From: Oscillospiraceae bacterium
GTDB lineage: Bacteria; Bacillota; Clostridia; Oscillospirales; SIG627
NCBI GenBank assembly: GCA_015064635.1
Contig: SVRV01000006.1
Location: forward strand, 31,494-95,493
Reading direction: 5' to 3'
Length of the DNA: 64,000 nt
The translations under genes were made by a program, and so were the position numbers. Below the pieces are notes generated by a model. It was not told the origin of the DNA. It did not search any database and saw nothing but the letters and a program-made list of their open reading frames with translations. Shown here in pieces: positions 5,850 through 58,929 of this stretch. Within the stretch, counting starts at the first letter, position 1. The number at the start of each line of letters is the position of its first letter.

Positions 5850-5985
5850 GTGCGGAACGAAAGAACCGTTCACCGAGGGGACTCTGGAGAATCTCATTTA
5901 TTTGAGTGCCGAAGGTGCAAGGTGAAATACCGAATCTCTCAGGCAAAAGGATAGAGTAAAAGCATAAACACTTTTTTGTGTTATG
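5850..5985 (+). ncRNA. Glycine riboswitch (apparently one canonical aptamer, ~5874-5957, plus flanking hairpins)
   Basis: GAGGGGACTCTGGAGAATCTC...GTGCCGAAGGTGCAAGG...AATCTCTCAGGCAAAAGGATAGAG matches the glycine aptamer consensus; sits upstream of an AGCS transporter. Confidence 0.88.
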
Positions 5986-22896: not shown

Positions 22897-22897
22897 C

Positions 22898-23066
22898 AAC
22901 TAAATCCGTCTTTGCAGACGGAATAAATCAATCTTCGATTGATGATATCTGCTACGCAGATGAAATCGCCTGCGGCGAATTAAAGACGGATTTAATTTCA
23001 TCGAAGCCGCAAGGCTTTGATTTCATCCAAACTTGTTTGGATTTCATCGTGCTGTGCACGATTTCA
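22898..23066 (+). repeat. Multi-hairpin structured repeat, copy 1 (downstream of tRNA-Tyr)
   Basis: AACTAAATCCGTCTTT ... AAAGACGGATTTAATTTCATC..., chain of ATC-stem-loop-GAT hairpins; second copy (inverted) at 58648-58812. Confidence 0.85.
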
Positions 23067-35125: not shown

Positions 35126-36187
35126 TTAAAGCTTGTATGTCCAGTTGAACTTGTCCTCAATCTTGCCCCACTGAATACCTGTAAGAGTATCATAGAGGTG
35201 CTGAGTAACTTCACCAATCTTGCCTTCGTTGATAATGAACTTCTTACCCTTGTAGGAGAGCTCGCCGATAGGAGATACAACTGCCGCTGTACCTGTACCC
35301 CAAGCCTCTTCAAGAGTACCGTTTTCAAGAGCCTCAGCAAGCTCATCAACGCTGAGAAGTCTCTCACTTACCTTGTAGCCTTCTGACTTGAGAACTTCGA
35401 TACAAGACTTTCTTGTAATACCGGGAAGGATAGAGCCTGAAAGCATAGGTGTAACAATTTCGCCGTTGATCTTGAACATAACGTTCATAGCGCCAACTTC
35501 TTCGATATATTTTCTTTCAACACCGTCAAGCCAAAGAACCTGAGCATATCCTTGAGATTCAGCCTTCTGACCTGCTCTGTTACTTGCCGCATAGTTACCG
35601 CCGCACTTGGTGTAACCTGTACCGCCTCTTACGGCTCTTACGTCGTCAGCTTCAATCATGATCTTAACAGGGTTGATACCTTCCTTGTAGTAGCTTCCTA
35701 CAGGAGAGAGAATAATCATGAAGGTTGCGTTGTGAACTGCGTGAACACCGAGAGTCTCGTCGTTTCCGAAAAGGAAGGGACGGATATAAAGTGATGTTCC
35801 GGGGGCTGAGGGAGTCCAGTCCTTTTCAAAGTCAACGAACTTTGTGAGAACTTCAAGAGCAAGGTCCTCGGGAATTTCAGGAAGACAGAGACGCTCTGCG
35901 GAGCTGTTCAAACGGCGGATGTTTTCCATGGGTCTGAAAAGCTGAACCGATCCGTCGGCTGTGCGATACGCCTTGAGACCTTCGAAGATTTCCGAACCGT
36001 AGTGAAGAACAGTTGATGCGGGATGAATAGGGAAGGGACCGAAGGGAACGATTCTTGCATCATGCCAGCCCTTTTCCTGAGAATAATCCATAATGAACAT
36101 ATGGTCGGTGAATACCTTACCAAAGCCAAGTGTTGAGCTGTCGGGCTTTGCCTTGAGCTCTGCTGCGCGAGTGATTGAAATTTCCAT
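35126..36187 (-). CDS. ilvE: Branched-chain amino acid aminotransferase
   Basis: GYTKCGGNYAASNRAGQKAESQGYAQVLWLDGVERKYIEEVGAMNVMF; FEGLKAYR. Confidence 0.94.
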   Translation of the reverse strand: MEISITRAAELKAKPDSSTLGFGKVFTDHMFIMDYSQEKGWHDARIVPFGPFPIHPASTVLHYGSEIFEGLKAYRTADGSVQLFRPMENIRRLNSSAERLCLPEIPEDLALEVLTKFVDFEKDWTPSAPGTSLYIRPFLFGNDETLGVHAVHNATFMIILSPVGSYYKEGINPVKIMIEADDVRAVRGGTGYTKCGGNYAASNRAGQKAESQGYAQVLWLDGVERKYIEEVGAMNVMFKINGEIVTPMLSGSILPGITRKSCIEVLKSEGYKVSERLLSVDELAEALENGTLEEAWGTGTAAVVSPIGELSYKGKKFIINEGKIGEVTQHLYDTLTGIQWGKIEDKFNWTYKL

Positions 36188-36203: not shown

Positions 36204-36734
36204 TTAATAATCGCGTCCGAGTTTCATTGCGTTAAGGTTTACGTCAAGCATATCTGCACGCTTTGCGGAAATAACCTTCTTGAGTGCTGCAACTACACCT
36301 TCATCGGTGAATTCGCCGGTTTCGCCAAGTACCTTGCCCATGATTATCATGTTTGCAAGTGTGGGAGTACCGTTTTCGTCTGCAAGCTTTGTTGCAGGAA
36401 TGGGAAATACCTTTACATCGTCTCTTTTAACTTCTCTTTCGATGAGAGATGAATCGTAGAATATCATACCGCCTGCCTTAACGGTGTTTTCGTACTTGTC
36501 AAGGGAGGGAAGATTCATTGCGATGAGAATATCGGGGTTTGATACGATGGGTGAGCCAACGGGAGTTTCGCTGATAATAACAGAACAGCTTGCTGTACCG
36601 CCTCTCATTTCGGGACCGTATGAGGGAAGCCATGATACCTGCTTGTCCTCTGTCAGACCTTTATATGCAAGAAGCTTACCTGCAAAAAGGATACCCTGAC
36701 CGCCGAAACCTGCAAAAACATACTGATGTGCCAT
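36204..36734 (-). CDS. 2-oxoacid:ferredoxin oxidoreductase, gamma subunit (VorC/KorC-like)
   Basis: [36 protein letters not shown]. Confidence 0.9.
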
Positions 36735-37495
36735 TATTTATCCCCCTTTACAATTCCCGCTGTTCTATCCTTATATACACCGAGAGGATAGTAGGGGATC
36801 ATTTTTTCTTCAACCCATTCAAGTGCCTTCTGAGGAGTCATACCCCAGTTTGTAGGACAGCTTGAAACAACTTCGATAAGAGAAAATCCCTTATTGTTTA
36901 TCTGGTTTTCAAAAGCTTTCTTGATAGCCTTCTTGGCAGCCTTAACGTTCTTTACGTTGTTTACGGCAACTCTTTCGAGGTATTCGGGACCGTCAAGTTC
37001 GGAAAGCATTTCGCAAACCTTGATGGGGAAACCGCAATGAGCGGTGTCTCTTCCGTAGGGAGATGTCTGCGTTACCTGACCGGGAAGGGAGGTGGGAGCC
37101 ATCTGACCGCCTGTCATACCGTAAATAGCATTATTTACGAAAATAACGGTTATGTTTTCGTTACGTGCCGCAGCGTGAACTGTTTCAGCCATACCGATTG
37201 AGGCAAGGTCGCCGTCACCCTGATATGTAAATACAATGTGATTTTCGGGGTCAGCACGCTTAACACCCGTAGCAATAGCGGGAGCACGTCCGTGAGCCGC
37301 TTCAATCATATCACAGTTAAAATAATTATATGCCATAACCGAGCAACCAACGGGTGCGATACCGATGGTTCTTCCTTCAATACCAAGCTCGTCAAGACAC
37401 TCAGCTACAAGACGGTGAATAATACCGTGTGTACAGCCGGGGCAGTAGTGCATGGGAAGGTCGGCAAGTGCATGGGGTTTATCAAATACTACCAT
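36734..37495 (-). CDS. 2-oxoacid:ferredoxin oxidoreductase, beta (TPP) subunit (VorA/KorB-like)
   Basis: YCPGCTHGIIHRL; HGRAPAIATGVKRADPENHIVFTYQGDGDLASIG (GDGD TPP motif). Confidence 0.9.
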   Translation of the reverse strand: MVVFDKPHALADLPMHYCPGCTHGIIHRLVAECLDELGIEGRTIGIAPVGCSVMAYNYFNCDMIEAAHGRAPAIATGVKRADPENHIVFTYQGDGDLASIGMAETVHAAARNENITVIFVNNAIYGMTGGQMAPTSLPGQVTQTSPYGRDTAHCGFPIKVCEMLSELDGPEYLERVAVNNVKNVKAAKKAIKKAFENQINNKGFSLIEVVSSCPTNWGMTPQKALEWVEEKMIPYYPLGVYKDRTAGIVKGDK

Positions 37496-38562
37496 TATTT
37501 TGCACCTCCGTTTTTGTGAGCTGTTTTTATTGCTTCAAGAATCTGTTCGGGTGTGGGAATCATACCGCCTGCACGGTTTACGAGAGTTACAGGACGGCGG
37601 CACTCTGTTGCAAGACGAACGTCCTCTATCATCTGTCCCATTGAAAGCTCAACGGAAATAAATGAATGTACCTTTTCGGTAGCCTTGAGGAAGGGAGCCT
37701 TGGGGAAGGGCCAGAGTGTGATGGGACGGATAAGTCCTACCTTTATACCCTGCGCACGTGCTTCTACGATAGCATTTTTTGCTACACGGGAAGCGATACC
37801 GAATGCTGCAATACAAATTTCAGCATCCTCCATCATATATTCCTCATACATAACTTCGTTCTTTTCGATTTCGGCATAACGCTCGAATCTCTTGAAGTTG
37901 AGCTGTTCAAGTTCTTCGGGAACGAGAGAGAGTGAGTTTGTAATGTTGTGGAAACGTTCAAGCTTTGTTCCGACAGTTGCCCAAGGCTTTTCGGGCATGG
38001 GCTTTACTTCAAGGTCAAGGGATACAGGCTCCATCATCTGACCCATTGTACCGTCGGCAAGAATCATGGATGTTACACGGTACTTGTCTGCTACGTCAAA
38101 GCCGTGAACTGTGAGGTCTGCCATTTCCTGAACGGAAGCGGGAGCGAAAACAACCATATGGAAGTCACCGTGTGCACCGCCCTTTGTTGCCTGGAAATAA
38201 TCTGACTGTGAGGGCTGAATACCACCGAGACCGGGGCCGCCTCTCTGTACGTTAACTACAAGTGCGGGAAGGTCTGCACCTGCAAGGTAAGAAAGTCCTT
38301 CACCCTTAAGTGAGATTCCGGGGCTTGAAGAGGAAGTCATAACACGCTTACCGCATGAAGCAACGCCGTATACCATATTGATAGCGGCAATTTCACTTTC
38401 TGCCTGAAGGAAGCAACCGCCGATTTTAGGCATTCTTTTAGCCATGTAAGCGGCAATTTCAGTTTGGGGAGTAATGGGATAACCGAAGTAATGGCGACAG
38501 CCTGCAACGATAGCGGCTTCAGCAATGGCTTCGTTACCCTTCATCAATACTTTATCTGCCAT
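37495..38562 (-). CDS. vorB: 2-oxoacid:ferredoxin oxidoreductase, alpha subunit (VorB-like)
   Basis: GYPITPQTEIAAYMAKRMPKIGG; TSSSSPGISLKGEGLSYLAGADLPALVVNVQRGGPGLGGIQPSQSDYFQATKGG. Confidence 0.9.
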   Translation of the reverse strand: MADKVLMKGNEAIAEAAIVAGCRHYFGYPITPQTEIAAYMAKRMPKIGGCFLQAESEIAAINMVYGVASCGKRVMTSSSSPGISLKGEGLSYLAGADLPALVVNVQRGGPGLGGIQPSQSDYFQATKGGAHGDFHMVVFAPASVQEMADLTVHGFDVADKYRVTSMILADGTMGQMMEPVSLDLEVKPMPEKPWATVGTKLERFHNITNSLSLVPEELEQLNFKRFERYAEIEKNEVMYEEYMMEDAEICIAAFGIASRVAKNAIVEARAQGIKVGLIRPITLWPFPKAPFLKATEKVHSFISVELSMGQMIEDVRLATECRRPVTLVNRAGGMIPTPEQILEAIKTAHKNGGAK

Positions 38563-38796: not shown

Positions 38797-39459
38797 TTAC
38801 ATTATTTTGTTTTGAAGTTTTAATGGGAATAGATTTGGTATTTTATTTTCAAGGGAGGGAAATATCTTCGAGTGAACCGAGGTCATAACGAGGGGAATTC
38901 CCGCTTTTTCACTCAGTTCATTTGCTTTTTCAAGTGACGATAAAACAATCTCGGGTGTTGTTTCTTCTCCGATGTTTGAGTTGTTTATGATACCCGTAAA
39001 AGGTATTTTTCCTGCCCATTCAATTTCGCGCATTACCTCAAGTGCCGAATCGGCATCCGGGGTAAGAGGACGGCAGGCATTAAAGACGAAAAGCATTTCG
39101 TAATTGTTTTCCTCTTTTATTTGCGATGCATATCTTCCAAGCACCAATGCACCTCTTTCATCTCCTCCTATGTCAAGTATGGCGTGAGACGATTTATCAT
39201 CGGTCAGTGCATACATTTCCTGAGGAAGTGACGGTAAGTCAACGTTTGAGCCTGCAAAGGCGGAAGCAATAAGCTTTATACCCGCTTCTTCAAACTCCTT
39301 TTGACTGTCCTTGGTACGGAAGTAGGGGTTTACTATATCCATGTCGGCAACAACTACGTTATCGGTAAGCTTTTTCAGTTCAAAAGCCATGTTTACGGCG
39401 ATGTTTGTCTTACCGCTTCCGTAATGTCCCGAAAGGAGGGTTATTCTTTTGTATTTCAT
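38797..39459 (-). CDS. MinD/ParA-like P-loop ATPase
   Basis: LLSGHYGSGKTNIAVNMAFELKK; DMDIVNPYFRTKD; ILDIGGDERGA. Confidence 0.82.
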   Translation of the reverse strand: MKYKRITLLSGHYGSGKTNIAVNMAFELKKLTDNVVVADMDIVNPYFRTKDSQKEFEEAGIKLIASAFAGSNVDLPSLPQEMYALTDDKSSHAILDIGGDERGALVLGRYASQIKEENNYEMLFVFNACRPLTPDADSALEVMREIEWAGKIPFTGIINNSNIGEETTPEIVLSSLEKANELSEKAGIPLVMTSVHSKIFPSLENKIPNLFPLKLQNKIM

Positions 39460-41741
39460 TATAATTTGTTCCTTTGTATCTTGCCGCTGACGGTCTTGGG
39501 AAGAGAATCCTTAAATACTACAATTCTGGGATACTTGTAAGGAGCCGTTCTGCTCTTAACGTAATCCTGAATCTCTTTCTTGAGTGCGTCGGTGGGTTCG
39601 GTTCCCTTGACAAGCACGATACTTGCCTTAACAACCTGACCTCTCACCTCATCGGGTGCCGCAGAAACGCCACATTCGAGAACGTAAGGAAGTTCCATGA
39701 TAACGCTTTCGATTTCGAATGGACCGATACGGTATCCGGATGACTTGATAACGTCATCAACACGGCTGACATACCAGAAGAATCCGTCCTCGTCACGCCA
39801 AGCAACGTCGCCGGTGTGATAGTAACCGTCATGCCATACCTCACGGGTCTTTTCTTCGTTGAGGTAGTATCCGGTAAAGAGTCCGCAGGGAGCACCGTTC
39901 TTGACGTTAACACAGATTTCTCCGTTTTCACCGTCCTTAACGGGATTTCCGTCCGCATCAAGGAGCTCGACATCATATATAGGTGCGGGTTTACCCATTG
40001 AACCTACCTTGTGAGATGTTCCAACAAGGTTGCCTATTATCATAGTGCTTTCTGTTTGACCGAAGCCCTCAAGTATCTGAAGACCGGTGAGTTTTTCAAA
40101 CTGATTGTAAACCTCGGGATTAAGTGCTTCTCCCGCTGTTGTCATATGCTTGACTGACGAAAGGTCATATTTTGAAATATCTTCCTTAATCATCATACGA
40201 AGCATTGTGGGGGGAGCACAGAAGGTTGTTATGTGATATTTTGCAAACATTGGCAGAATATCCGAAGCATCGAAACGATCGAAGTCATAAACGAAGGTTG
40301 CCGCCTCACATACCCACTGACCGTAGAATTTACCCCACATGGATTTTGCCCATCCGGTGTCCGAAATTGTGAAGTGAAGTCCGTTGGGGTCAACCGTGTG
40401 CCAATATTTAGCTGTATGGAAATGACCGAGTGCATATTTGCAGGAGTGTGCCGCAATCTTGGGATATCCTGTTGTACCCGATGTAAAGAACATAAGCATA
40501 AGGTCATCTCCGCAGGGAGATTCTTCCGTTCTGTTGAAGTGTGTGGAGAAGAGGGCACGCTCTTCGTCAAAATTACGCCATCCGTCTCTGTCACGTCCAA
40601 CAATTATCTTTGTCTGAACTGTGGGAGACTTTTCTATGGCAAGCTCTACCTGGTGAGCTGTGTCACCGTCCGCAGTACAGATAACGGTTGAAATGCCCGC
40701 CGCATTAAAGCGGTATTCGAAATCGTGCTCCTGAAGCTGGTTTGTTGCAAGAATTGCAATGGCACCAAGCTTGTGAAGACCGAGCATCGCTATCCAGAAC
40801 TGATAATGACGCTTGAGAACCAGCATTACTCTGTCACCCTTTTTGATACCAAGTGACTTAAAGTAGTTTGCCGCCTGAGCGGAATACTTCTTCATATCCT
40901 TGAAGGTGAAGCGACGTTCTGTCTTGTTCACATCGATGTGAAGCATAGCAAGCTTATCGGGTTTCTTGTCCGCAATAGCATCAACAATGTCAAAAGCAAA
41001 GTTGAACTTGTCTGTGTTTTTAAATGTAATTGATGTGGGAGTTCCGTTTTCATCTTCAACAGTATCAATGAAGTTACGGTATACTCTGTCCTCAGTATCA
41101 CGGGGGATCTGTCTTTCGGTTGTGACAGTGGGATGGGGAAGGAGCTCGGGAATTGATTCTCCGGTGGGATTAAGAACTATTGCGTAGAAAAGACAATCTC
41201 TGTCATTTACCGCAATCATTCCGTGTGGCTCCGAGCTGTTATAATAAATACTGTCGCCGGGGCCGAGTACCTCGGTATGCTCTCCCACCTGAACCTTAAG
41301 GTGACCTTCTATGATAATGTCACATTCTTGTCCTGCGTGTGTGGTGAGTTCAATATCGTCAGCCTTGTCTTTGTAGGTAGCTCTTACATACAGCGGCTCA
41401 GCTATTCTGTTTTTGAACTCGGAGGCAAGGCTGTAATACGTCATGCCGTGTGCCTGCTCAATTTTCTGACCGAGACCGTTTCTTGTTACAGTGTAGGTTT
41501 TAAGCTTAGGGCTGTGTCCCTCGATGATATCGGTTACGTCTACGTTAAGCGCAAGAGCACATCTGTAGATAAAAGCAAAGGCAAGGTCACTGTTACCGTT
41601 TTCACAGTTTATGTATTCATCAACAGATACATCTGTTTTCTTTGCCATATCTTCAACCGAGATACCCATGATTTCACGCAATTCGCGTATTCGTCCTGCC
41701 ATTTCCTTGATTTTAAAATCAAGACCTGTAATTTGTTGCAT
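39459..41741 (-). CDS. HTH(XRE)-cupin-AMP-dependent acyl-CoA synthetase fusion, paralog 1
   Basis: N-term IRELREIMGISVEDMAKKTDVSVDEYINCENG HTH; cupin ECDIIIEGHLKVQVGEHTEVLGPGDSIYYNSSEPHGM; AMP-binding MFFTSGTTGYPKIAAHS; C-term PKTVSGKIQRNKL. GGAGG RBS supports start at 41741. Confidence 0.9.
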   Translation of the reverse strand: MQQITGLDFKIKEMAGRIRELREIMGISVEDMAKKTDVSVDEYINCENGNSDLAFAFIYRCALALNVDVTDIIEGHSPKLKTYTVTRNGLGQKIEQAHGMTYYSLASEFKNRIAEPLYVRATYKDKADDIELTTHAGQECDIIIEGHLKVQVGEHTEVLGPGDSIYYNSSEPHGMIAVNDRDCLFYAIVLNPTGESIPELLPHPTVTTERQIPRDTEDRVYRNFIDTVEDENGTPTSITFKNTDKFNFAFDIVDAIADKKPDKLAMLHIDVNKTERRFTFKDMKKYSAQAANYFKSLGIKKGDRVMLVLKRHYQFWIAMLGLHKLGAIAILATNQLQEHDFEYRFNAAGISTVICTADGDTAHQVELAIEKSPTVQTKIIVGRDRDGWRNFDEERALFSTHFNRTEESPCGDDLMLMFFTSGTTGYPKIAAHSCKYALGHFHTAKYWHTVDPNGLHFTISDTGWAKSMWGKFYGQWVCEAATFVYDFDRFDASDILPMFAKYHITTFCAPPTMLRMMIKEDISKYDLSSVKHMTTAGEALNPEVYNQFEKLTGLQILEGFGQTESTMIIGNLVGTSHKVGSMGKPAPIYDVELLDADGNPVKDGENGEICVNVKNGAPCGLFTGYYLNEEKTREVWHDGYYHTGDVAWRDEDGFFWYVSRVDDVIKSSGYRIGPFEIESVIMELPYVLECGVSAAPDEVRGQVVKASIVLVKGTEPTDALKKEIQDYVKSRTAPYKYPRIVVFKDSLPKTVSGKIQRNKL

Positions 41742-41763: not shown

Positions 41764-42045
41764 TAAAAGCTCGTCCCAAAGATATGATCCTTGAGACGAG
41801 CATAATAAACAACGCCCGCGGTACCACTCAAGTTGCGGACTCGCCGCCTCTCTTGGAATCAATCAATTCCTATGCATTTACGCAGCAATCACGGAGAGGG
41901 TCTACTCACAAATGCTTTCTTCCTCTCGGCTCGGAAGCTACAAATACCGATATCTATCTGCGACTCTCACCAAACGTCGCTTCTCTTTGCATAAATAATT
42001 CGGTATACTCTTCGTCAAAGCCTTTCCTTGAATATAAGAAGTATA
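41764..42045 (-). ncRNA. T-box leader (probable Val specifier GTA at 41939-41941)
   Basis: Minus-strand T-box GAGTGGTACCGCGGGCG, terminator GCTCGTCTCAAGGATCATATCTTTGGGACGAGCTTTT, stem I with AGTA loop-E motif and GGTG apical element. Confidence 0.88.
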
Positions 42046-42082
42046 TCACATCATTTGAGCTTTGTCAATATTTTTTTAAAAA

Positions 42083-44347
42083 TTACAGTTTATTTCTTTG
42101 AATTTTGCCGCTTATTGTCTTGGGAAGCTCATCACGGAACACTACAATTCTGGGATACTTGTAAGGAGCTGTGTGTTTTTTTACATAATCTTGGATTTCT
42201 TTCTTGAGCTCTTCTGTGGGCTCGGTTCCCTTGACAAGTACGATACTTGCCTTAACAACCTGACCTCTTACCTCGTCGGGAGCGGCAGATACACCGCATT
42301 CAAGAACGTAGGGAAGCTCCATGATTACACTTTCTATTTCAAACGGACCGATACGGTAGCCGGATGACTTGATAACGTCGTCTGTTCTGCCCACATACCA
42401 GAAGAATCCGTCCTCATCGCGCCATGCAACATCTCCTGTATGATAATAGCCGTCGTGAAGAACTTCGTCTGTCTTTTCTTGGTTTCCGTAATATCCAAGG
42501 AAGAGACCGCAAGGAACCTTATCACTTACCTTAACACAGATTTCACCGTTTTCACCGTTAGGTACGGGATTTCCGTCGGGGTCGAGAATCTGTACGTCAT
42601 AAAGCGGAACGGGACGTCCCATTGAGCCTACCTTGTGATCCTGACCTACAAGGTTTGCGATAGCAAGAGTGAGCTCGGTCTGACCAAAGCCTTCCATTAT
42701 CTGAAGACCTGTGAGCTTTTCAAATTGATAGTATACCTCGGGATTAAGCGCTTCACCTGCAGTTGTCATATGCTTAACTGATGAGAGATCATATTTTGAG
42801 ATATCCTCTTTTATCATCATACGAAGCATTGTGGGAGGTGCACAGAAGGTCTTGATTCCGTATTTTGCAAACATTGGAAGAATTTCCGATGCATCAAATT
42901 TGTCGAAATCGTATGTGAATACCGCGCCCTCGCACAGCCATTGACCGTAGAGCTTACCCCAGAGAGCCTTACCCCAACCGGTATCGGATATGGTGAAATG
43001 AAGTCCGTCGGGCTCTACCATATGCCAATATTTTGCTGTGGGGTAGTGACCGAGTGCATATTTGTAGGAATGAGCCGCTATCTTGGGATATCCTGTTGTG
43101 CCCGATGTAAAGAACATGAGCATCATATCGTTACCGCAAGCGGTTTCTTCTGTTCTGTAGTAGTGAGTTGAGAAGAGAGCGTATTCTTCGTCAAAGTCGT
43201 GCCAACCGTCACGCTTACCGCCCACAAGTATTTTTGTCTTGAGAGTGGGACTTGAGCTTTGTGCAAGGTCAACCTGCTCTGCTATCTGTCCGTCTGCACT
43301 GCAAACAATCGCCGAAACTCCTGCGGCATTGAAACGGTAATCGAAATCATGTGCCACAAGAAGATTTGTTGCGGGAATAGCAACCGCTCCGAGCTTATGA
43401 AGCGCAAGTATCGAGAACCAGAACTGATAATGACGCTTGAGCACCAGCATTACTCTGTCGCCCTTCTTGATGCCGAGGGATTTAAAGTAGTTTGCCGCCT
43501 GCGCTGAATGACGCTTCATATCGTTGAAGGTGAACTTTCTTTCAACCTTATTCTTGTCAATGTGAATCATTGCAAGCTTTGCGGGGTCTTTCTTTGCGAT
43601 GGCATCAACTACATCAAAAGCAAAATTGAATTTATCTTCGTTTTCAAAATCAATGGAAACAAGCGACCCGTTTTCGTCTTCAACACATTTGATGAACTTC
43701 TCACTTACCAAGCCTGCCTTTGCAGTGGAGGCAGTGATGGTCTTTCTTACGGTGGTTTCCTCTGTTGCCTCGCCCGGAAGTACCACAGCTACGAAGAGAC
43801 ATTCCTTACCGTCAACAGCAATCATACCGTGAGGCTCTGAGCTGTTGTAATAGATACTGTCGCCCTCACTGAGATATTCAATGTTGTCGCCAACCTGAAT
43901 TTTAAGTCTGCCGCTTACAACGTAATCGAATTCCTGACCTGAGTGAGTTGTAAGATTTATAGGCTTGTCCTGAAGCTCTGCATCATATTCATATTTTACC
44001 CAATAGGGCTCAGCAATTTTGTCCTTGAACTTGGGCGCAAGACTTTGAATCTGGATTCCGTTTTCTTTGGCTGTGTCCTGACCTTCTCCCTTACGTGTAA
44101 TTGTATAAGAACGGAGGTTTGCACTCTTTCCCTCGAGAATATCTGTTATTTCTATATCAAATACCAATGAGCACTTATGTATGAAAGAGAAGGGGAAATC
44201 TGCATTTCCTGCTTCATATTCGAGATAATTTTCGACAGAAACTTCTGTCTTTTCTGCCATTTCTTCAATGCTGATTCCTTCTATTTCACGCATTTCACGA
44301 ATTCGGCGCGCTACCTCCAGAAGTTTTGTTTTTGAAGTTGTTGACAT
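42083..44347 (-). CDS. HTH(XRE)-cupin-AMP-dependent acyl-CoA synthetase fusion, paralog 2
   Basis: Same architecture as 39459-41741; GGAGG RBS before ATG at 44347. Confidence 0.9.
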   Translation of the reverse strand: MSTTSKTKLLEVARRIREMREIEGISIEEMAEKTEVSVENYLEYEAGNADFPFSFIHKCSLVFDIEITDILEGKSANLRSYTITRKGEGQDTAKENGIQIQSLAPKFKDKIAEPYWVKYEYDAELQDKPINLTTHSGQEFDYVVSGRLKIQVGDNIEYLSEGDSIYYNSSEPHGMIAVDGKECLFVAVVLPGEATEETTVRKTITASTAKAGLVSEKFIKCVEDENGSLVSIDFENEDKFNFAFDVVDAIAKKDPAKLAMIHIDKNKVERKFTFNDMKRHSAQAANYFKSLGIKKGDRVMLVLKRHYQFWFSILALHKLGAVAIPATNLLVAHDFDYRFNAAGVSAIVCSADGQIAEQVDLAQSSSPTLKTKILVGGKRDGWHDFDEEYALFSTHYYRTEETACGNDMMLMFFTSGTTGYPKIAAHSYKYALGHYPTAKYWHMVEPDGLHFTISDTGWGKALWGKLYGQWLCEGAVFTYDFDKFDASEILPMFAKYGIKTFCAPPTMLRMMIKEDISKYDLSSVKHMTTAGEALNPEVYYQFEKLTGLQIMEGFGQTELTLAIANLVGQDHKVGSMGRPVPLYDVQILDPDGNPVPNGENGEICVKVSDKVPCGLFLGYYGNQEKTDEVLHDGYYHTGDVAWRDEDGFFWYVGRTDDVIKSSGYRIGPFEIESVIMELPYVLECGVSAAPDEVRGQVVKASIVLVKGTEPTEELKKEIQDYVKKHTAPYKYPRIVVFRDELPKTISGKIQRNKL

Positions 44348-44373: not shown

Positions 44374-44640
44374 AAACCCGTCTCAAAGATTTTTCTTTGA
44401 GACGGGTGAAATTAACTCATCCGCGGTACCACTCAAATTGCAGGAGACCTGCCACTCTTGGAATCAATCAATTCCTATGCATTTACGCAGCAATCACGGG
44501 AACACTTACTTGAGAACTTTCAGCATTCCGGCTCGGAAGTGATAGGATACTTTGTCGATTAGTTACTGACTCGCACCAAACGTCAGCTCTCTGGAAACAA
44601 CCTTCAAAACCGTCTTCGTCACAGCCTTTAAATATTTCGG
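44374..44640 (-). ncRNA. T-box leader (probable Ile specifier ATC at 44541-44543)
   Basis: Minus-strand TTTGAGTGGTACCGCGG, terminator ACCCGTCTCAAAGAAAAATCTTTGAGACGGGTTTT. Confidence 0.88.
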
Positions 44641-44693
44641 TGAATACACTATATCACTGTTTTTTGATTTTGTCAATAGTTTTTTTGAAAAAA

Positions 44694-52222: not shown

Positions 52223-53503
52223 TTATTTTTGTTTACTGCGTGAAAATGCACCTTTTGTGCCTATTAGTGCAAGTAGTGCGCATGGCAAAAGCCAACCGAA
52301 GCCCATGTGAGAAAGAGGAAGGTATTTAAGAAATGCTACCCGTATGCCAAATCCGGAAATTGCTTCTGCTATTCCGTAGACCAGTGCTCCGCCAACAGAA
52401 AGCCGCCATGAAAGCGGAGTAAGATATTTTCCCAAAAAGCCGAGGAGTACTATTACAAGCACCGGAGGATATATTACAGTCAGCACGGGAGATGCCAGCG
52501 CAACAATCTTTTCTACTCCCATTACAGACAGCACTGCGCTGAAAATGCATATTGCCGTAACGAATACTTTGTAGCTTATCTTGCCTTTTGTAAGTCCCGA
52601 AAAATACTTTGCCGCCGCACCTGTAAGAGATACCGAGGTTGTAAGACAGGCAAGTCCTGCGATTATTCCAAACACCGTAACGCCGAATGTTCCCGGGACA
52701 ATGATTGATACTGCATTTGTCAATAGCTCTGTACGTGGAATACTTACATCGTATAGTGACGATGCTGTTGCGCCCATATACGTTAACCCAAGATATATTA
52801 CAAAAAGTCCGACAGCCGCAAATCCGCAAGCTCCCGATATTACGGCTCTTTTTGCCCGTTTGCTTGAGTGTCCTCTCCTTGAGGCGCTTTCAATGAGCAG
52901 AGTGTCAATTACTGCCATACCGAGAATATCCATAGACTGATATCCCGCACTCAATCCCGATGAAAGGGGAGACAGAATAGCTTTCTCTTTTATTTGGTCG
53001 GAGATAGGGAAGAGTGCTGCTTTTGTTACAAGAAAAAGGAGCCCTATAACCAATACGGGAGTGAGAATTTTACCTACAATGTCAATAACCTTTGTTTCGT
53101 TGAATGCAAGAAGCAAAGTTATAATAAAAAACACTGCACTGAAAAGTGCGGAGGGAATTCTGTCCGAAAGAGGGAGTATGGCAAGCTCAAATGTGGTGGC
53201 ACAGGTTCTTGGTACACTTATCAGCGGCCCGAGGCAAAGTACTATCACGAAGGTAAGAAGAAGTCTTGCTTTATTGCCGATGGGAGATGCGAGAGCCTTA
53301 AACGAGCCTTGATTTACTATGCTGATTAGTGCCAATATCGCAAGTCCTACGTCAGCAATGTAAAAGCCTGTGAATCCCAAAAACCAGTCCGTACCCGATT
53401 CAAGACCGAGGTGAGGTGGAAATATCATATTCCCCGCACCGAAAAGAGTGGAGAATAGTGCCGCACCGATAATGAGTGAATCTGTTATATTTTTCTTTTT
53501 CAT
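52223..53503 (-). CDS. brnQ: Branched-chain amino acid:cation symporter BrnQ (LIVCS)
   Basis: ALFSTLFGAGNMIFPPHLGLESGTDWFLGFTGF signature; ~12 TM. Confidence 0.92.
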   Translation of the reverse strand: MKKKNITDSLIIGAALFSTLFGAGNMIFPPHLGLESGTDWFLGFTGFYIADVGLAILALISIVNQGSFKALASPIGNKARLLLTFVIVLCLGPLISVPRTCATTFELAILPLSDRIPSALFSAVFFIITLLLAFNETKVIDIVGKILTPVLVIGLLFLVTKAALFPISDQIKEKAILSPLSSGLSAGYQSMDILGMAVIDTLLIESASRRGHSSKRAKRAVISGACGFAAVGLFVIYLGLTYMGATASSLYDVSIPRTELLTNAVSIIVPGTFGVTVFGIIAGLACLTTSVSLTGAAAKYFSGLTKGKISYKVFVTAICIFSAVLSVMGVEKIVALASPVLTVIYPPVLVIVLLGFLGKYLTPLSWRLSVGGALVYGIAEAISGFGIRVAFLKYLPLSHMGFGWLLPCALLALIGTKGAFSRSKQK

Positions 53504-58853: not shown

Positions 58854-58929
58854 TGGTGGGGACTACAGGGCTCGAACCTGTGACCCTCTGCTTGTAAGGC
58901 AGATGCTCTCCCAGCTGAGCTAAACCCCC
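58854..58929 (-). tRNA. tRNA-Val(TAC), with encoded CCA
   Basis: Minus strand GGGGGTTTAGCTCAGCTGGGAGAGCATCTGCCTTACAAGCAGAGGGTCACAGGTTCGAGCCCTGTAGTCCCCACCA; loop CTTACAA. Confidence 0.96.

Follow-up and report, generated by a model that had tools for sequence, protein, structure and literature searches.

Why should a gene for an acyl-CoA synthetase be preceded by a regulatory RNA that appears to read valine? The locus that raises this question lies in a window of 64,000 nucleotides (the whole stretch of DNA that we analyzed) from an Oscillospiraceae bacterium, whose genome assembly comprises 2.47 Mb in 57 contigs and is 90% complete. The window contains an operon in which an isoleucine T-box precedes the gene for ligase-2 and a valine T-box precedes the gene for ligase-1, followed by genes for a P-loop protein, the three subunits of a 2-oxoacid:ferredoxin oxidoreductase, and IlvE (Table 1). 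This gene order is conserved in related loci. The surroundings suggest why a ligase gene would answer to valine: together they would make a route from a branched-chain acid to this amino acid. We consider it very probable that the valine T-box drives a set of genes for converting isobutyrate to valine, and that the isoleucine T-box adds a ligase for converting 2-methylbutyrate to isoleucine.

Table 1. Features of the valine and isoleucine units and the presumed tRNA ligand (window coordinates).
Feature	Position	Strand	Basis
Promoter of Ile unit, TTGACA-17-TATAGT	44648..44676	(-)	consensus match
Sister T-box leader, Ile	44395..44631	(-)	Rfam, 96.8 bits, over gathering score
Specifier codon AUC (Ile)	44541..44543	(-)	Rfam alignment, register reading
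Terminator of Ile leader, 14 pairs	44376..44407	(-)	
Ligase-2: XRE HTH + cupin + acyl-CoA synthetase	42083..44347	(-)	predicted 2-methylbutyryl-CoA synthetase
Promoter of Val unit, TTGACA-17-TATACT	42040..42068	(-)	consensus match at 11/12 positions, TG before second hexamer
T-box leader, Val	41789..42027	(-)	Rfam RF00230, full-length match
Specifier codon GUA (Val), then purine G41938 and lower stem CUUC	41939..41941	(-)	sequence, conserved register
Antiterminator UGGU, able to pair with tRNA 3' end A73-CCA	41823..41826	(-)	sequence and Rfam alignment
Intrinsic terminator, 15 pairs then T-run	41769..41801	(-)	fold -28.6 kcal/mol, z -3.4
Ligase-1: XRE HTH + cupin + acyl-CoA synthetase (MacS-like), 760 aa	39459..41741	(-)	Pfam
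P-loop protein, CbiA/MinD type, 220 aa, conserved between ligase-1 and VorB	38797..39459	(-)	Pfam
VorB, alpha subunit of 2-oxoacid:ferredoxin oxidoreductase	37495..38562	(-)	NF005507, 534.6 bits (cut-off 399)
Oxidoreductase beta subunit (TPP)	36734..37495	(-)	PF02775; TIGR02177 below cut-off
Oxidoreductase gamma subunit	36204..36734	(-)	PF01558
IlvE, branched-chain amino acid aminotransferase	35126..36187	(-)	NF009897, 481.6 bits (cut-off 307); TIGR01123 over cut-off
tRNA-Val(UAC), presumed ligand	58854..58929	(-)	only Val tRNA detected in genome

T-boxes switch genes on when the cognate amino acid is short. The leader before ligase-1 aligns with positions 1-219 of the 219 in the Rfam T-box model RF00230 (E 1.1e-17, 85.4 bits). 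Since this score lies below the curated cut of 93 bits, the default whole-window scan lists only the sister element before ligase-2. The valine leader also contains a stem I with the distal AGAGA/GGUG motifs and a stem II; the UGGN bulge of its antiterminator lies within GUGGUACCGCG (41827-41817), and U41823 matches the discriminator A of tRNA-Val. The promoter of the valine unit sits ahead of the leader, between the genes for ligase-2 and ligase-1. A promoter scan returned 24 matches, compared with 14.8 expected in shuffles, and the promoters of the valine and isoleucine units were the two best. With its own promoter before the leader and a terminator after it, the valine unit should be transcribable on its own. 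At the level of sequence, these observations confirm the element as a complete T-box leader with the specifier GUA.

The preliminary description had paired GAAG-AGTA-TACCGA with TCGGTA-TTT-GTA-G-CTTC and proposed the GTA in the latter strand, followed by a purine next to the basal stem, as the specifier. All of these letters occur on the minus strand as quoted, with GAAG at 42013-42010, AGTA at 42009-42006, TACCGA at 42005-42000, GTA at 41941-41939, G at 41938 and CTTC at 41937-41934. The tRNA-Val(TAC) invoked as its reader is likewise encoded where that description had located it, on the minus strand. Folding stem I from this sequence alone left the specifier loop ill-defined, and orthologs were compared instead. 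A scan that took one genome per species yielded 80 loci encoding relatives of ligase-1 over its full length; almost all are named as Clostridia from herbivore guts. In 73 of these loci a T-box core lies roughly 100 bases ahead of ligase-1. No T-box is recognizable directly before ligase-1 in the other seven; in five, ligase-1 directly follows ligase-2. At L077:9550-10000, the region before ligase-1 holds a degenerate-looking T-box with the core GCGGGACCGCGGGCG and a strong terminator that has been retained.

Read at a fixed register, all 72 readable ligase-1 leaders specify valine (GTA 65, GTC 6, GTG 1). Seventy of them were read by script and two, L050 and L076, by eye (both GTA); in the L076 leader a GAG is changed to CAG. 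Mapped onto the ligase tree, positions 1 and 2 of the specifier show zero changes and position 3 shows five, all silent, compared with 14 to 31 changes at each of the flanking positions -8 to -2 on the same tree. The four-pair lower stem adjoining the codon is fully paired in 69 of 70 orthologs, and its variants covary (GAAG/CTTC, GGAG/CTCC, GAAA/TTTC, AAAG/CTTT, GGGG/CCCT). The base following the specifier is a purine in all 70 script-read orthologs (G 60, A 10). Since dozens of species keep the register and the codon varies only synonymously, the valine specifier is not a matter of chance, and the comparison supports valine specificity of this leader.

The argument from AGTA as a loop-E motif is weak, as the motif is not conserved. 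This tetranucleotide occurs at the 5' side of the specifier loop in only 7 of 70 orthologs; AGGG, AGGA and AGTG are found there more often, and UUU (TTT here) predominates on the 3' side in place of the loop-E partner GAA. An S-turn (loop E) is usual in T-box specifier loops, but it is not universal. This unusual loop could be taken to mean that the specifier is another triplet, such as UGU or UUG reached by a shift, and that the leader is not specific for valine; at many loci our regular expression also picked up TGT-A, shifted upstream by one base. The covarying lower stem fixes the register, however, and the GTC and GTG variants preserve valine in the chosen register while they break a constant reading in the shifted ones. 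Moreover, the Rfam alignment, which had been named as a check, places GUA and no other triplet at the consensus specifier. We regard a different specifier as extremely improbable.

The GUA reading also agrees with the behavior of the other T-boxes in the same genome. Ten were read by taking the triplet that precedes one further base and the lower stem, with control gene identities assigned by eye from translations, except for the leuA-like gene. The expected amino acid stands at this register in five controls (trpB TGG, pheS TTC, thrS ACC, cysE TGC, leuA-like CTC), which bears out the valine-specific GTA proposed at the outset. Of the other T-boxes, three belong to ligase genes and read ATC, ATC and GTA; the one before aspS reads AAC, and the one before a sodium symporter gene reads TAC. 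An Asn codon before the aspS-like gene (L001, contig C34) plausibly fits the supply of Asn-tRNA through a non-discriminating AspRS. One further T-box candidate, L011, was rejected: it scores E 0.089 and lies within a coding frame.

The sister leader reads ATC in all 44 orthologous leaders before ligase-2. In 23 of these 44 isoleucine leaders the base after ATC is C, not the usual purine. Ligase-2 is 71% identical to ligase-1, and we take its start to be the ATG at 44347; the TTG start of the open reading frame falls within the isoleucine terminator. A third XRE-cupin-ligase paralog (L006; L012:4350-6650, minus strand, contig C33) has its own T-box with the specifier AUC (Ile) and carries Gly465; it is followed by a 478-residue protein with ACT and metallo-beta-lactamase domains.

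The enzymes encoded downstream of the valine leader can be assigned with differing precision. For ligase-1 the best match in the Protein Data Bank is 3etc (E 1e-185), and the nearest NCBIfam model is MbcS (NF047394), reached with 430.2 bits compared with a cut-off of 850. Because this cut-off is missed, we call the ligase MacS-like and not MbcS. From its sequence and context ligase-1 is predicted to be an isobutyryl-CoA synthetase, and ligase-2 a 2-methylbutyryl-CoA synthetase. The oxidoreductase can be classed by sequence as VOR-type: its alpha subunit scores over the curated cut-off, and alpha, beta and gamma subunits are encoded together. A separate ferredoxin subunit was not found among the operon genes. 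A sequence search for solved relatives of the P-loop protein found none. Both ligases begin with an XRE-cupin region (41007-41741 in ligase-1 and 43631-44347 in ligase-2, both on the minus strand), for which the only solved relative by sequence is the stand-alone HTH_3 regulator 1y9q. The fused ligases may act as transcription regulators too.

The proposed route would take the place of genes that we could not find. Models for ilvB, ilvC and ilvD gave no match in the 90%-complete source genome and matched in 14 of 14 control genomes; given the completeness of the assembly, this absence is strong but not absolute. If the three genes are missing, the organism would without the proposed route need all branched-chain amino acids from outside. 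Within its family the ligase fusion occurs in 20 of 22 genomes, and ilvC scores over cut-off in 3. Among 297 near-complete genomes of the order, ilvC is lacking in 69 of the 93 with the ligase fusion and in 52 of the 204 without it (odds ratio 0.12, Fisher p 3e-15, with genomes counted raw and shared ancestry ignored). Of 28 genomes with two fusion copies, 26 lack ilvC. Nonetheless, 24 of the 93 fusion genomes also carry ilvC, which counts against the proposed route.

Combining these observations, we infer the following sequence of events. The T-box would read uncharged tRNA-Val(UAC) through the specifier GUA, so that, when valine is short, transcription from the unit's own promoter would pass the terminator into the genes from ligase-1 through IlvE. 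Ligase-1 would then convert isobutyrate, ATP and CoA to isobutyryl-CoA, the oxidoreductase would carboxylate this thioester reductively with CO2 and reduced ferredoxin to 2-oxoisovalerate, and IlvE would transaminate the latter to valine. Induction of the upstream isoleucine T-box would add ligase-2, and the resulting 2-methylbutyryl-CoA could enter the same later enzymes to yield isoleucine.

The same types of enzyme run oxidatively in amino-acid fermenters, and the cluster could accordingly gain energy by oxidizing branched-chain amino acids to the branched acids, the T-box being incidental. Acid formation with a gain of ATP is described for archaeal NDP-forming synthetases (PMC3942289). The ligases of the present operon are AMP-forming enzymes of the MacS type, which cost ATP, and T-boxes induce on amino acid shortage. 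These two features argue for synthesis rather than breakdown, as does the absence of ilvB, ilvC and ilvD with the dependence on external supply that it would otherwise entail. Hence, we take biosynthesis to be the most likely direction of these enzymes, and we judge a catabolic role very improbable.

MbcS supplies branched acyl-CoA in Staphylococcus. As this family provides the nearest NCBIfam model, the ligases could also be thought to make mainly branched acyl-CoA primers for branched membrane fatty acids, and the same acyl-CoAs could serve both uses. Yet ligase-1 falls short of the MbcS cut-off, and co-transcription with a 2-oxoacid oxidoreductase and IlvE under the control of Val and Ile tRNAs points to amino acids. 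A principal function in lipid priming is no more probable to us than breakdown, and amino acid synthesis remains the preferred reading.

In the proposed route the two ligases would activate different acids. On a tree of 123 ligases, all 72 with a valine T-box stand apart from all 37 with an isoleucine T-box, with a support of 1.0 and no exceptions. Over the 516-residue catalytic part a single position is fixed differently: residue 465 is Ala in 72 of 72 ligases under valine control, including ligase-1, and Gly in 37 of 37 under isoleucine control, including ligase-2, although these counts are not independent because the Ala/Gly exchange represents one split on the tree. Where a ligase has no readable T-box, its residue 465 is that of its own clade. 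Residue 465 follows directly after the conserved Trp464 and aligns with a Gly in the Macs protein of Methanosarcina acetivorans (3etc), for which 2-methylbutyrate is the preferred substrate (PMC10455477). It also aligns with Ile266 of human ACSM2A, reported as the pocket wall (PMC6122825). Size would lead one to expect the larger side chain in the clade whose presumed substrate has one carbon less.

Among solved structures Macs lies closest to the ligase domain (E 1e-185), and it shares with the isoleucine-controlled ligase the Gly after the SGW motif, where the valine-controlled clade has Ala; unlike Macs, the ligases described here carry an N-terminal XRE-cupin extension of about 240 residues. 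The leader itself resembles the transcriptional T-boxes of RF00230 in its promoter, stem I with specifier, AGAGA/GGUG motifs, stem II, UGGN antiterminator and terminator. It differs in the specifier loop (5' AGNN / 3' UUU instead of AGUA/GAA) and in controlling genes for an acyl-CoA ligase and a 2-oxoacid:ferredoxin oxidoreductase. Two surveys of T-boxes (PMC2494555, PMC12452182) do not mention acyl-CoA ligase or oxidoreductase targets, or matched Ile and Val salvage pairs. Like the ilv/leu T-box operons of Bacillota, in which branched-chain amino acid synthesis is induced via uncharged tRNA (PMC2494555, PMC12452182), the present system would respond to amino acid shortage; those operons drive AHAS-IlvC-IlvD, whose genes were not found here, and the Ile, Val and Leu units here each have their own T-box. 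Searches of the open-access literature for T-boxes combined with carboxylation or acyl-CoA synthetase returned nothing on point, and in the same literature we found no paper that assigns regulated genes for branched-acid carboxylation in gut Clostridia. The T-box itself is an ordinary member of a known family.

For many rumen microbes, branched-chain fatty acids serve as growth factors. The carboxylation and amination of isobutyrate to valine and of 2-methylbutyrate to isoleucine in the rumen goes back to Allison, Robinson and Peel, as cited in PMC7356843. That classical work (1960s-80s) relied on growth and label; what we propose, from sequence, is a gene set together with its regulation. As late as 2020 the ferredoxin-oxidoreductase route to branched-chain amino acids was called theoretical for Prevotella bryantii (PMC7709123). 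The genes present, the classical genes that are missing, the three matching specifiers and a residue in the pocket now point to one operon, so that a single assay of the enzyme and another of the tRNA could put the question to the test. The answer bears on why isoacid feed additives aid ruminant fibre digestion, and a riboswitch specifier can yield substrate predictions for poorly annotated ligases.

We lean slightly toward a still wider reading, in which Ile, Val and Leu T-boxes would control branched-chain fatty-acid salvage in gut Clostridia devoid of ilvBCD. The specifier would then predict the ligase substrate, Ala465 (Val, isobutyrate) versus Gly465 (Ile, 2-methylbutyrate) would carry the difference, and the XRE-cupin region may constitute a second, protein-level sensor. 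In many loci a Leu T-box unit follows the operon; in this genome it lies on another contig (C16; L013:7915-11788, minus strand), where a T-box reading CTC precedes the leuA-like gene. Across loci the leuA-like leaders read CTC in 13 cases and CTG in one. The second gene of this unit encodes a protein of 817 residues in which, according to Pfam, a TIM-barrel (AP_endonuc_2) is joined to an AMP-binding ligase, and not LeuCD. Only one gene of the aconitase family was found in the genome.

Some further elements of the window deserve mention. A BrnQ-type branched-chain amino acid transporter is encoded at 52223-53503 on the minus strand, about 8 kb from the operon; the default scan of the window gave no T-box match for it. 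On the plus strand we located a glycine riboswitch aptamer (5874-5964) and a Gut-1 RNA (22897-22971), the latter directly after the genes for tRNA-Thr and tRNA-Tyr.
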